A stretch of DNA of 6,523 nt from contig JACZXM010000183.1 in assembly GCA_022571615.1 (NCBI GenBank), forward strand, positions 1 through 6,523, given 5' to 3'. Each line of letters starts with the position of its first letter. Positions within the stretch are counted from its first letter, which is position 1. The stretch comes from Acidobacteriota bacterium (GTDB taxonomy: Bacteria > Acidobacteriota > UBA890 > WLXD01). The notes beneath the pieces were generated by a model that saw nothing but the letters and a program-made list of their open reading frames with translations, searched no databases and was not told the origin of the DNA. Both the position numbers and the translations under genes were made by a program. Shown piece by piece: positions 2,748 through 6,523 of the stretch.

Positions 2748-4082
2748 TTGCCCCATCTGGTTGCGTCTCGTCTAGTGGAGAAAACCGCCTTGTCCGAATT
2801 TTTCCGATCCTCGTCGGCCATCGCCGTTGTGCTGATCGCCGCGCTTAGCGCCTGCGACTCTGTCGACCCGGGTCCAGCCTTCGCTGGCGACGCTCCGCTA
2901 TCCGACCCGGTGGCACTCCGCTCCCCTGCCGGGCCCGGAAGCGGCGAACCAAGCCTGTACACGACAGCGGATGGCCGCGTGCACATGAGCTGGATCGAGC
3001 CCGATGGGGCGGGCCACGCGATCCGTTTCGCGACCCTCGGGGCCGACGGATGGACCTCTCCGCGCACGATCGCCGACAGCGCAACCTTCTTCGTGAACTG
3101 GGCCGATTTCCCCTCGATCATCGAGCTGGCCGATGGCGCGCTGGCCGCGCACTGGCTGCAGCGAAGACCCGGCGCGGACTCACCCTACGCCTACGATGTC
3201 GTGATCAGCCTGTCGGCCGACGGGGGCGAGCACTGGCAACCCGGGCTGACTCCCCACCGCGACGGCACCGCCGCCGAGCACGGCTTCGTTTCGATGTTGC
3301 CGGAGACCGACGGCGGCTTGACCGCGGTGTGGCTCGACGGCCGGAACGCCGCGATCGCCGAGCCTCGCCCGGCAGGTCCAGGCCCCGACATGACGCTCCG
3401 CAGCGCCCATGTCAGCGGCTCGGGCGGCATCACTCAGGAAGCGTTGCTCGACCCTCGCATCTGCGATTGCTGCCAGACCTCGGCCACCTTTGTGGGTGAC
3501 ACACTCCTGGTGGCCTACCGCGATCGTTCAGCCGAGGAGATTCGCGATATCTATACCGTGCGCCGCGACGCTCAGGGATGGCACAAACCGGTGCGAGTGG
3601 CTCAGGATAACTGGATGATTCCGGGCTGCCCGGTGAACGGCCCCGCCATCGCCGCGCTCGAGGACGCAGGTGCTGTCGCCTGGTTCTCTCTCGTAGGCGG
3701 AGCGCCGGAGGTCAAGGTGGCTTTCACCGACAACCAGGGTCGCTCCTTCGGTGAGCCGCTGCTGCTGGAGCGCGCCGACGGCGAGTGGGCCACGCTCGGC
3801 CGGGTCGATGCCGAGTGGATCGATGCCGAGAACGTGCTGGTGACCTGGTTGGCGGCCAAGGGCAAACGCGCGGAGATCCGGTACCGCACTGCCTCTCGGA
3901 GCGGCGAGCTGGGCCCGGTCCGGGTGTTGGCCGAGACCAACCCCAGCCGTTCCAGCGGGTTTCCACGCATCACCCGGGCCGGCTCAGATTTGATCTTCGC
4001 CTGGACCCTGCCGGGAGAGCCCGCCACGATCAAGATGGCGCGACTTACTCTCGCCGCCGTCCCGCGGCCCGCGCTTCGGTGA
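2748..4082 (+). CDS. Sialidase-fold (BNR/Asp-box) lipoprotein with CxCC motif
   Basis: This protein of up to 444 residues has a lipoprotein signal (hydrophobic about 23-35, lipobox LSAC, lipid cysteine Cys36) and a beta-propeller body. An Asp-box is seen at SADGGEHW (156-163) and a second, degenerate one at TDNQGRSF (327-334), as in the sialidase/BNR superfamily. The middle carries DPRICDCCQT (235-244) and, further on, NWMIPGCPVNGP (288-299). I recall this pairing as typical of a subgroup often auto-annotated as exo-alpha-sialidase; the catalytic Arg triad of true sialidases is not evident, so glycosidase activity is doubtful. Cys239, 241, 242 and 294 could form disulfides or a metal site. 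TTG 2748-2750 has AGGGG 5 nt upstream; a second TTG at 2790-2792 has GGAG 9 nt upstream and gives a more usual short lipoprotein signal (MSEFFRSSS then the hydrophobic core), so the true start may be there. It is the first rightward gene after the AT-rich block and ends in TGA. Confidence 0.82.
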   Translation: MPHLVASRLVEKTALSEFFRSSSAIAVVLIAALSACDSVDPGPAFAGDAPLSDPVALRSPAGPGSGEPSLYTTADGRVHMSWIEPDGAGHAIRFATLGADGWTSPRTIADSATFFVNWADFPSIIELADGALAAHWLQRRPGADSPYAYDVVISLSADGGEHWQPGLTPHRDGTAAEHGFVSMLPETDGGLTAVWLDGRNAAIAEPRPAGPGPDMTLRSAHVSGSGGITQEALLDPRICDCCQTSATFVGDTLLVAYRDRSAEEIRDIYTVRRDAQGWHKPVRVAQDNWMIPGCPVNGPAIAALEDAGAVAWFSLVGGAPEVKVAFTDNQGRSFGEPLLLERADGEWATLGRVDAEWIDAENVLVTWLAAKGKRAEIRYRTASRSGELGPVRVLAETNPSRSSGFPRITRAGSDLIFAWTLPGEPATIKMARLTLAAVPRPALR

Positions 4083-4176
4083 CCTGGCGCAAGGCCGATA
4101 CGACCGGCGTCATGCGGAACCGAACAGCCCCATGCCTTGTGCCCGTTCGAGTACCGCTAGCACTGAGAATACGCTG

Positions 4177-5091
4177 ATGAAATGGAGCCCCGAATCGGAG
4201 CCGCTGATACGGCTTGCGGTGTTTTTTGGCGTGTTCCTGGTAATAACGCTGTGGGAGATCGCGGCTCCGTTCCGTGAGTTGAGCCTGCGCAAACCGCGTC
4301 GCTGGCTCCGCAACCTGAGCTTGGTGGCGCTCGACACGGTGCTTGTCCGGCTGGCGCTGCCGGCCGGTGCGGTCGGGATGGCGTGGCTCGCCGCCGATCA
4401 CGGCTGGGGCGTGTTCGCGCTCCTGAACGCGCCGTACTGGGTCGCTGTCGTGGGGTCGGTGGTGCTGCTGGACCTGACCGTCTACCTACAGCACGTCATG
4501 TTCCACGCCGTCCCGGCGCTTTGGCACGTGCATATGGTCCACCACGCCGACCTGGATTTCGATGTCACCACTGGCACTCGTTTTCATCCCATCGAGATCC
4601 TGATGTCGATGGGGATCAAGCTCGCGGTCGTGGCGCTGCTAGGAGCACCTGCATCCGCAGTGCTGATCTTCGAGCTGCTGCTCAACGCCACCGCGATGTT
4701 CAATCACGGCAACGTTCATTTGCCTGAGTGGATCGACGGCCCGCTACGCTGGGTGATCGTGACCCCCGACATGCACCGCGTACACCACTCGGCCAAGCGC
4801 ACCGAGTGCAACAGCAACTTCGGCTTCAACCTGTCATGGTGGGACCGCCTGCTGGGCACCTACATCCCCGAGCCGGCAGCTGGCCAAATGGGCATGACGC
4901 TCGGCGTGGGCCACGTTCGCGAGCCGCGCCAGACCTTGCCGTGGATGCTCGCCCTCCCCTTCCGCGCCGGCTCGGGCGGCTACCCTTTCGGTCGGCGCCG
5001 CCGCCACTCCCCGAAAGAACTCGCCAATGGGTCGGCGGAAGAATCGGATCCACGCCACCGTCCGACTCATGACGCGGCCGACAACCTGTAG
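4177..5091 (+). CDS. Sterol desaturase / fatty acid hydroxylase family membrane protein
   Basis: This 304-residue integral membrane protein has hydrophobic segments at about 11-30, 46-72, 86-103 and 144-172. The three histidine clusters of the family, which bind a di-iron centre for O2-dependent C-H hydroxylation or desaturation of lipids, are intact: HVMFH (106-110), HMVHH (119-123) and HRVHH (200-204), plus the FNHGN motif (175-179) and a C-terminal NFGFNLSWWDRLLGTY block (214-229). The substrate cannot be told from sequence; bacterial members modify fatty acyl, hopanoid, sterol or carotenoid-type lipids. The last 40 residues are Arg/His-rich and cytosolic-looking. ATG 4177 is preferred because MKWSPESEPLIRL matches the usual family N-terminus and a weak GAG lies 9 nt upstream; ATG 4132 would add 15 non-membrane residues and has no ribosome binding site. 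It follows the sialidase-fold gene by 94 bp in the same direction. Confidence 0.9.
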   Translation: MKWSPESEPLIRLAVFFGVFLVITLWEIAAPFRELSLRKPRRWLRNLSLVALDTVLVRLALPAGAVGMAWLAADHGWGVFALLNAPYWVAVVGSVVLLDLTVYLQHVMFHAVPALWHVHMVHHADLDFDVTTGTRFHPIEILMSMGIKLAVVALLGAPASAVLIFELLLNATAMFNHGNVHLPEWIDGPLRWVIVTPDMHRVHHSAKRTECNSNFGFNLSWWDRLLGTYIPEPAAGQMGMTLGVGHVREPRQTLPWMLALPFRAGSGGYPFGRRRRHSPKELANGSAEESDPRHRPTHDAADNL

Positions 5092-5226
5092 CCTGGATGA
5101 GGGTGCCGGAACGACGCGCACCGTTGCCGGAGGGGTAGATCGTGAGCGAGCCACAGTGGTAGAGATCTTTAGCGCTGGATGCTACTCCGACCGAGCTCCA
5201 GACGAGGCCACAACCAACGGTGCAAG

Positions 5227-6162
5227 ATGATCCGCGCGATCTTGAGCTCAGTGGCGCTCGTTGCGATCCTCCTGTGGCCCGTGAGCGCTGGGGCGCAGAT
5301 CTTCGGTCGCGGTGCACGCACCGAGTTCATCTCAGGGTTCGGAATCCGCACCTTCGTCAGTTTTCTGGAAGCGAGCCATCTACTCCGCAACGGCCAGGAA
5401 GTTGAAGATCCACTGGGGCGTAGATTCAGCGTCAGGGTGACGCCGTTCGTTGTCGCGTACGGGCTGCTGCCGCGCGTCAGTTTGATCGCCATGTTCCCCA
5501 TTGTCCGAAAGGAGCTGCGGCTCACAACTCCGACCGGCTCTGAGACCCTTGGTGGGGACACCGGGCTCGGCGACGCGACGCTGCTGGTGAAGTGGCGCTT
5601 TCTGAAACGAGACCGCGGCAGGGGCTCTTTCCAGCTTGCGGTCACGGCGGGCGTGAAGACACCCACCGGGCGTGATGATCTCCGCGACCGTAAAGGAAAC
5701 CTACTGCCAGCGAGTCTGCAGCGCGGCTCGGGCTCCTGGGACCCGACGGCTGATCTCAACCTCACTTTCGTACCTCCGTCAGGGCGCGGCCGATGGATCT
5801 TCACCGCCAACGTCGGTGCCACGCTCAGCACCGCAGCCAACGGACTCGAGCAAGGTGACCGCCTGGGCTATGACGGCATGGTCAAGTACCGCATCTTCCC
5901 GGCCCGGTATCCCGGTCGCGATACGTTCCTGTTGCTGGAGCTCAACGGCCGGTGGCAAGGTCGCTCACGGACGCTCGGTGTCCCGATCGAGAGCTCGGGC
6001 GGCCACCTGCTATACCTATCTCCGGGGTTGCAGTTCCTTCTGCTGCCCAATCTCGTCCTCGAGGCTGGGGTGCAATTCCCCATTCGCCGCAGTCTCAACG
6101 GCACGCAGCTAGCGCCGGGAGTCAATGCACTGGCGGGCCTGCGGTACATCATCGTCCCTTGA
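5227..6162 (+). CDS. Outer-membrane beta-barrel, Phenol_MetA_deg-type 'transporter' family
   Basis: This 311-residue protein has a clear Sec signal (MIRAILSS, hydrophobic 9-19, cleavage after AGA at 23). The rest is alternating beta-strands with aromatic and basic girdles and no helices, and it includes the block GDTGLGDATLLVKWRF (from about residue 116) typical of the Phenol_MetA_deg (PF13557) barrels that are usually annotated as putative transporters. The end, LAGLRYIIVP, looks like a final barrel strand although it lacks the usual terminal Phe. Family members are often found near metal or aromatic-compound genes, but the cargo is unknown. ATG 5227 is chosen because it begins a compact signal peptide; ATG 5179 would add a 16-residue hydrophilic stretch. 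The ribosome binding site is poor. The stop is TGA, and 48 bp later the HMA selenoprotein gene begins, which suggests an operon and an envelope-spanning function with that protein. Confidence 0.8.
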   Translation: MIRAILSSVALVAILLWPVSAGAQIFGRGARTEFISGFGIRTFVSFLEASHLLRNGQEVEDPLGRRFSVRVTPFVVAYGLLPRVSLIAMFPIVRKELRLTTPTGSETLGGDTGLGDATLLVKWRFLKRDRGRGSFQLAVTAGVKTPTGRDDLRDRKGNLLPASLQRGSGSWDPTADLNLTFVPPSGRGRWIFTANVGATLSTAANGLEQGDRLGYDGMVKYRIFPARYPGRDTFLLLELNGRWQGRSRTLGVPIESSGGHLLYLSPGLQFLLLPNLVLEAGVQFPIRRSLNGTQLAPGVNALAGLRYIIVP

Positions 6163-6195
6163 TCGCTGGCAGGCCGTGGTAGAGACCCACACCGC

Positions 6196-6201
6196 AAGGA
6201 G
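6196..6201 (+). promoter_or_regulatory. Ribosome binding site of the HMA selenoprotein gene
   Basis: AAGGAG lies 9 nt before ATG 6211-6213 and is the best Shine-Dalgarno sequence in the window. It shows that translation starts here and not by read-through of the preceding TGA, and that the short frame before the first internal TGA is the start of a real gene. Confidence 0.85.
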
Positions 6202-6210
6202 CAATCAAAC

Positions 6211-6523
6211 ATGCGCGCAACAAGCACACTGCCCAACGCCCTGATCATCGCGGCTGGCTTACTACTGGCCCTGGTAACGGCGCAGCCCGCGGCAGCCCAG
6301 GTTGTCAGGGTGGAGGTCGGCGTCGCCGGCATGACGTGAGGCCTGTGAGCCTACGGGATCAGCCGATCCCTACAGCGCCTGGAGGGCGTTGCCGACACCA
6401 AGGAAGACCTCGAGCGTGAGCTGATCACGGTCGTTCTGGACCCCGACGCCCGACTCGATCCCGCGCAGCTGCAGAAGGCGGTGCGCCGAGCCGACTTCAC
6501 CCCGACCGGGGTCCGTGTGTGGC
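6211..6523 (+). CDS. Secreted HMA-domain selenoprotein with UxxU metal-binding motif (3' truncated by window)
   Basis: Reading TGA as selenocysteine, at least 104 residues are encoded to the window edge. Residues 1-30 are a Sec signal (hydrophobic about 10-23, then QPAAAQ). From residue 31 the chain fits a heavy-metal-associated (MerP/Atx1/CopZ-like) fold: strand VVRVEVG, loop GMT-U-GL-U-AYG, helix ISRSLQRLEGV, strands ADTKEDLERE and LITVVLDP, helix DPAQLQKAVRRADF, last strand GVRVW. The family's MTCxxC cysteines fall exactly on TGA 6337-6339 (Sec43) and TGA 6346-6348 (Sec46). After the second TGA the frame is open for 58 codons and continues the fold, which decay by mutation would not predict. 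TGA is an ordinary stop for two neighbouring genes, so general code change is unlikely. A hairpin suited to SelB recognition follows. The likely role is periplasmic binding or transfer of a soft metal such as Hg, Cu or Ag, or redox chemistry through a diselenide. The gene sits 48 bp after the beta-barrel gene. No cysteine remains in the visible protein. A pseudogene is the main alternative. Confidence 0.85.
6339..6380 (+). promoter_or_regulatory. Candidate bacterial SECIS element
   Basis: The core is a perfect 6-bp hairpin, GGGATC (6355-6360) and GATCCC (6365-6370), with apical loop AGCC. A G in the first two loop positions agrees with known bacterial SECIS rules. The loop begins 21 nt after the first TGA, inside the usual range of about 16-37 nt, but only 12 nt after the second. 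A lower helix can form from 6339-6346 (AGGC, CTGT) with 6372-6380 (ACAG, GCCT), interrupted by one bulged C and separated from the core by an 8/1 internal loop. The structure therefore encloses the second TGA, and one element may serve both codons. Found by eye; no folding energy was calculated. Confidence 0.6.

Follow-up and report, generated by a model that had tools for sequence, protein, structure and literature searches.

The stretch of DNA analyzed here (the window) is the entire contig C188 of an Acidobacteriota genome assembly (GCA_022571615.1, contig JACZXM010000183.1; 6523 bases), and a gene for an HMA metal-binding protein runs off its 3' edge. Both cysteines of the HMA loop are substituted by in-frame TGA codons, resulting in the motif MTUGLU (U, selenocysteine; x in UxxU, any residue). 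On the basis of the sequence evidence laid out below, we consider it rather probable that this gene encodes an exported HMA protein whose two selenocysteines would hold a soft metal, likeliest mercury(II) or copper(I), with one hairpin behind the UGAs dedicated to each of them. Across all fetched loci, which cover several phyla, 47 distinct genes carry the UGA pair at these two positions. The features of the window gene are as follows.

6196..6201, + strand: ribosome binding site AAGGAG, 9 bases upstream of the ATG, read from the sequence.
6211..6523, + strand: coding frame of the UxxU HMA protein, ATG at 6211, 104 residues visible, open at the contig end.
6211..6297, + strand: probable signal peptide, residues 1-29, AxA followed by Q30, judged by eye from a hydrophobic stretch.
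6322..6495, + strand: HMA domain, residues 38-95 (PF00403, 46.3 bits vs gathering 24.8, TGA read as Cys).
6337..6339, + strand: UGA 1, in-frame TGA, predicted selenocysteine at the first metal-ligand position.
6346..6348, + strand: UGA 2, in-frame TGA, predicted selenocysteine at the second metal-ligand position.
6355..6370, + strand: hairpin H1, GGGATC-AGCC-GATCCC, loop 21 bases past UGA 1; probable selenocysteine insertion sequence (SECIS) of UGA 1.
6373..6391, + strand: hairpin H2, 8 pairs, loop GGA, loop 32 bases past UGA 2; probable SECIS of UGA 2.

The frame starts with MRATSTLPNALIIAAGLLLALVTAQPAAAQVVRVEVGVAGMTUGLUAYGI... A first-pass annotation, made from the letters of the window alone, had proposed a TGA for each cysteine of an MTCxxC loop, a signal peptide ahead of an HMA domain, a strong ribosome binding site and no other stop up to the edge. 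Both codons, the domain, the AAGGAG site and the frame open to 6523 were confirmed, and the signal peptide was supported by eye only. As the window is a whole contig and no further stop occurs until 6523, it is the end of the contig, rather than a stop codon, that truncates the frame. In search of the missing tail, the protein of locus L101, the closest among the aligned relatives (55% identity over the part shared with the window protein), was used as query against the source genome (527 contigs, 71% complete) and matched the window only.

Relatives were collected by protein and by DNA searches. The window protein as sole query retrieved two-TGA genes in two of 59 other genomes (G032 and G025). 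Profile A1, consisting of four rows (window, G032, G025 and the CxxC form of G007), was searched over 396 Acidobacteriota genomes including the source and revealed at least 12 UxxU genes beyond the window with UGA at the same two codons, G032 and G025 being both profile rows and members of the 12. UxxC and CxxC forms were found in addition, so that the homolog search suggested by the first-pass annotation returned C or U at both sites; four single-TGA rows (G196, G118, G234, and G334) were left out of the fetched set. A DNA pattern in which the two TGAs are followed by 26 free bases and then H2 was scanned over public genomes of 84,980 species, with one genome for each species. It gave 46 matches in 45 stretches, 42 of which lie within UxxU HMA proteins from Acidobacteriota, Planctomycetota, Armatimonadetes, and other bins. 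The remaining four (L108, L109, L127, and L132) are located outside UxxU HMA proteins and look like chance. Nine of the 42 pattern-found genes are identical to genes from the protein search. With start codons set by a script rule, 41 of 46 aligned members have a full length of 155-200 residues; most relatives are longer than the window fragment, being composed of signal, HMA and a predicted OB-fold. A Planctomycetota contig (L115) carries three UxxU HMA genes inside approximately two kilobases, the H2 core being absent from one of them (UMTU). G007, a relative from the same order, has a UxxC HMA gene (MTUGGC; L037, 8179-8508, + strand) near a CxxC HMA-OB gene and its MerR.

Two simple explanations were considered. 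Two nonsense changes in a CxxC gene, either by pseudogene formation or by sequencing error, had already been regarded as a very unlikely coincidence, and we reject them as practically negligible: no point in favor was found, the same codons are affected in 47 distinct genes of many species and several phyla, the homologs keep the TGA pair with open frames on either side, the hairpins are conserved and sel genes are present. A pseudogene is thereby ruled out, and neither a read error nor the decay of homologs was observed. Equally negligible is the use of TGA as a sense codon (Trp or other) in the source genome, which is rejected likewise with no point found in its favor. TGA is a normal stop elsewhere in the window, terminating ordinary genes (e.g., 6160-6162 closing the 5179-6162 frame), a tRNA-Sec with the TCA anticodon is present, and translated non-UGA homologs carry Cys at both positions.

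The machinery for selenocysteine, proposed as a check in the first-pass annotation, is complete in the source genome: selA, selB, selD, and selC (tRNA-Sec) all score above curated cut-offs, and ARAGORN called a tRNA-SeC with anticodon TCA. For comparison, selA was present in six of six genomes for which only CxxC forms were fetched vs 10 of 12 UxxU genomes; being about equally frequent in both, its co-occurrence is non-discriminating. The same genome hosts a second selenoprotein candidate in a Mer-like cluster on contig C113 (L143, 5122-6972), comprising a MerR-like gene, a MerT-like gene (36.8 of 150 bits), an HMA gene with one UGA and a CopZ N-terminal metallochaperone (106.2, cut-off 100). 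The motif of this HMA gene is GMTUGACALAV (UxxC), and it is followed by an H1-type hairpin and only two of six H2 pairs.

The first-pass annotation expected a SECIS behind the TGA and overlooked that there are two hairpins. Both were first spotted in the window and then checked in the relatives. They meet the bacterial SECIS model given in PMC13188914 (spacing 16-37, stem 4-16, loop 3-9 with a G among its first two bases, energy <= -7.5), H1 with spacing 21, energy -8.4 and loop AGCC, H2 counted from UGA 2 with spacing 32, energy -10.5 and loop GGA. In all 47 UxxU genes, H2 is too distant from UGA 1 and H1 too close to UGA 2 for the published spacing. An Rfam scan of 6150-6523 returned only a weak CRISPR repeat match (E 4.1).

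The H2 core is present with all six pairs in 13 of 13 protein-found UxxU genes (12 of 12 excluding the window) and complete in none of 11 CxxC genes, one of which has 5 pairs. In a codon control, with amino acids held and codons drawn from local usage, the chance probability of the H2 core was 0.02-0.07 per gene. The 13-row UxxU alignment has 91.7% of its cells paired and 14 both-side changes vs 3.8 (standard deviation (sd) 1.8) after shuffling, a value reached by 0 of 500 shuffles; the CxxC alignment is paired to 43.4%, a level that some slid versions (32-43%) match. For all 47 UxxU genes, pairing amounts to 87.6%, with 53 both-side changes vs 18.5 (sd 7.1) and again 0 of 500 shuffles. Across the HMA genes of the fetched loci, H2 occurs in 45 of 47 UxxU, one of eight UxxC and none of 62 CxxC genes. 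H1, not being part of the selecting DNA pattern, was detected in 46 of 47 UxxU, seven of eight UxxC and 12 of 62 CxxC genes by a rule that tries several registers, the CxxC rows taking in ATPase domains and other distant HMA. Since UxxU genes have both hairpins, UxxC genes mostly H1 only and the CxxC genes fetched lack H2, and since the published spacing fits, there is probably one selenocysteine-insertion hairpin for each UGA.

Several observations weigh against this assignment. H1 fully passes the published model from UGA 1 in just 26 of 47 UxxU genes, 15 of the 21 failures (L101 among them) being due to the lack of a G at the loop start. Its chance probability in the codon control is 0.00-0.41 in UxxU genes and the hairpin thus weak in this test, and the UxxU gene of G313 has no H1 under the rule applied there. 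Two other covariation measures are weaker, being reached by 43 and 33 of 500 shuffles for the 13 rows and by 33 and 263 of 500 for the 47 genes. The CxxC set beats most shuffles as well (7 of 500 reach its pairing), as related sequences can. Because H2 belongs to the pattern by which 42 of 47 genes were picked, only the 13 protein-found genes are unbiased in respect to H2. Exceptions exist among the UxxC genes, with G130b having both hairpins and G376b neither in full. A simpler arrangement, with H2 alone serving both UGAs and H1 as a mere spacer or helper stem, would be in line with the better model fit of H2 (passing from UGA 2 in 45 of 47) and with G130b, which combines one UGA with two hairpins. 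We regard it as unlikely, yet as a serious competitor: H2 lies 40-42 bases from UGA 1, outside the published range, and H1 occurs without a full H2 in seven of nine single-UGA genes.

The pair of UGAs could also act mainly as a selenium-sensing switch, with a stop at residue 42 under low selenium and the exported protein being made if selenium is available. Both UGAs lie shortly downstream of the probable export signal, as would suit such a switch, which leaves the exact placement of both codons on metal ligands unexplained; we consider this very improbable.

The operon around the UxxU gene, likewise missed in the first-pass annotation, is conserved. For its description, 50 loci (46 UxxU and four CxxC, L115 counted twice) were compared with up to 5 kb per side as the contig allows, and neighbor families were defined as single-linkage clusters of open frames. 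The partner gene in the window is given in the following line.

5179..6162 (likely start 5227), + strand: outer-membrane beta-barrel-like protein, operon partner (PF13557 Phenol_MetA_deg, 40.9 bits, gathering 22).

The beta-barrel-like sequence cluster is represented in 46 of 50 loci; PF13557 was matched in four of eight barrels tested, and also in the window and L037 and not in L039. Other neighbors are NHL repeat proteins (20 loci), further HMA or ATPase genes (19), TlpA-like thioredoxins (18), MerR (13), CopZ N-terminal (5), and MerA-like genes (3). The TlpA-like gene of the window is situated 4 kb away on the opposite strand. TIGR02051 MerR was the best NCBIfam match for all six MerR-like regulators tested, every one of them sub-cut-off. 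In L097, a CsoR-like gene, MerA (582 bits, cut-off 454), barrel, NHL and UxxU genes follow each other on one strand. The MerR-like regulators of L106 and L123 depart from the three-cysteine pattern discussed below, having a CxC and one single Cys late in the sequence.

Concerning the role of the protein, a redox function deserves consideration, in which UxxU would alternate between its diselenol and diselenide states, working either as an exported oxidoreductase or as the reductase partner of the TlpA-like thioredoxin. The TlpA-like genes near 18 of the 50 loci would fit, and PMC9312934 assigns a presumed redox role to most families of prokaryotic selenoproteins. The fold is HMA and not thioredoxin, the UGA pair sits on the metal-binding loop, and some loci are surrounded by MerR, extra HMA, CopZ N-terminal and MerA genes, so we rate this role as improbable, though worth keeping in mind. 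Most likely, the protein would work in the periplasm, carrying mercury or another soft metal on its diselenolate site.

The three-cysteine pattern, which we take as the mercury signature of MerR, is present in six of 12 MerR sequences compared; one of two MerA-like neighbors tested passes the cut-off (L097), the MerA-like proteins of the source genome are sub-cut-off only (391 of 454 bits), and RND-type efflux genes, named by eye, occur in 3 of 50 loci. On these counts, the metal is not fixed.

Structure prediction was performed on relatives. The window fragment stops before the C-terminal half, and all evidence for an OB-fold comes from the relatives. An AlphaFold2 model of L101 (38 sequences, Cys for Sec; pLDDT 86.6, pTM 0.78) showed an HMA fold followed by strands and a helix, the longer architecture that had escaped the first-pass annotation. 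In the structure search, its HMA half resembles CopZ, MerP and copper ATPase domains. The VIA-align rows mostly covered this half. For the C-terminal half, a separate model (L106, pLDDT 83.9) was searched by Foldseek only; SSB and lysyl/aspartyl-tRNA synthetases came out on top, with a best E of 2.7e-3 and no row at E<=0.001. The SSB and lysyl-tRNA synthetase matches presumably share the OB-fold, and this half is predicted to be an OB-fold. Pfam assigned no family to it except three weak matches in 1-2 of 46 members, and a PDB sequence search with the C-terminal profile gave 0 matches at E up to 0.1.

In the mechanism we propose, SelB would read UGA 1 via H1 (loop ~21 bases downstream) and UGA 2 via H2 (loop ~32 bases downstream). 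The UxxU protein would then be exported and bind its metal in the periplasm as Se-metal-Se, the OB-fold half may dock it onto an operon partner (e.g., the beta-barrel or the NHL propeller), and the TlpA-like thioredoxin, nearby in about a third of the loci, might keep the selenols reduced. More tentatively, and with somewhat less than even confidence, we suggest a new double-selenocysteine carrier branch, in which tandem hairpins would serve as separate address labels for UGAs nine bases apart and an exported HMA-OB protein serving a beta-barrel operon would offer a diselenolate site that is likely the tightest for mercury or copper a protein can provide.

Apart from this system, the window encodes a 65-residue exported-looking peptide (1434-1631, - strand) whose second half contains six cysteines (CLGSCLAYCIQDGGNVSACWSGCRRVCP) and which has no Pfam or NCBIfam match, an exported-looking protein without Pfam match (105-1304, - strand), a protein with a weak BNR repeat match in Pfam (2748-4082, + strand) and a fatty acid hydroxylase family protein (4132-5091, + strand; Pfam). 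The region 2460-2680 between divergent genes is AT-rich (28% GC vs 64% window-wide).

If true, two selenocysteines per metal site would represent a diselenolate ligand that binds soft metals and is specified by a gene, with a predicted very tight grip on metals such as mercury or copper, and would be of interest to specialists in mercury and copper handling. The apparent rule that the UGA count equals the hairpin count provides a test case for SelB serving two UGAs nine bases apart. In public protein records the family is concealed, as some records begin past the UGAs, e.g., the hypothetical protein P0023, whose 107 residues correspond to the tail of the L101 gene. The DNA pattern finds the family directly and can uncover further members.

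The first-pass annotation had left undecided whether the family was already described, and the answer is twofold. HMA-type UxxU selenoproteins are known: tables in PMC13188914 (a 2026 review) and PMC9312934 include the UxxU metal-binding protein NF041115 ("putative mercuric reductase"), and the former credits the family to a 2007 study of Olavius algarvensis symbionts. The window branch stays far below the cut-off of this model. At the level of titles and abstracts, no account of an HMA-OB branch, its operon or tandem bacterial SECIS was found, and PMC12013277 reports no new selenoprotein gene for its one Acidobacteriota test genome. Among the NCBIfam models, NF041115 (UxxU_metal_bind) fits the window protein best, with 38.1 bits under a cut-off of 95. 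It is matched by 46 of 46 members at E<=0.001, the best E being 3.4e-14 vs ~2e-27 expected at 95 bits by our own scaling. Since none of the 46 members approaches the cut-off, this looks like a new branch of an already known kind, the UxxU HMA selenoproteins. The model and the window family have in common an HMA-type domain in which selenocysteine occupies either ligand position; they differ in that the 74-position model has no OB half, whereas the window family carries HMA followed by the predicted OB-fold. The UxxC gene of G007 (MTUGGC) is nearer to NF041115 than the window gene, with 75.8 bits. Other selenoproteins whose names point to the transport of mercury or heavy metals are NF045683, a MerT/CopZ fusion-like heavy metal transport selenoprotein, and a Sec-containing MerP from the Global Ocean Sampling survey, the table row of which shows no motif (PMC2398784). 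NF045683 differs by its MerT fusion, and the window protein reaches 29.3 of 375 bits. MerP (TIGR02052), the periplasmic mercury-binding protein of mer operons, scores 36.6 bits for the window, below its cut-off of 92.55, and is matched by 45 of 46 members (best E 6.6e-11). With the curated cut-offs not reached, assignment to either NF041115 or MerP was rejected. The 92-position MerP model has no OB half, and MerP carries a Cys pair instead of a Sec pair, as do the CopZ/Atx1 copper chaperones, which are cytosolic and consist of a single domain.
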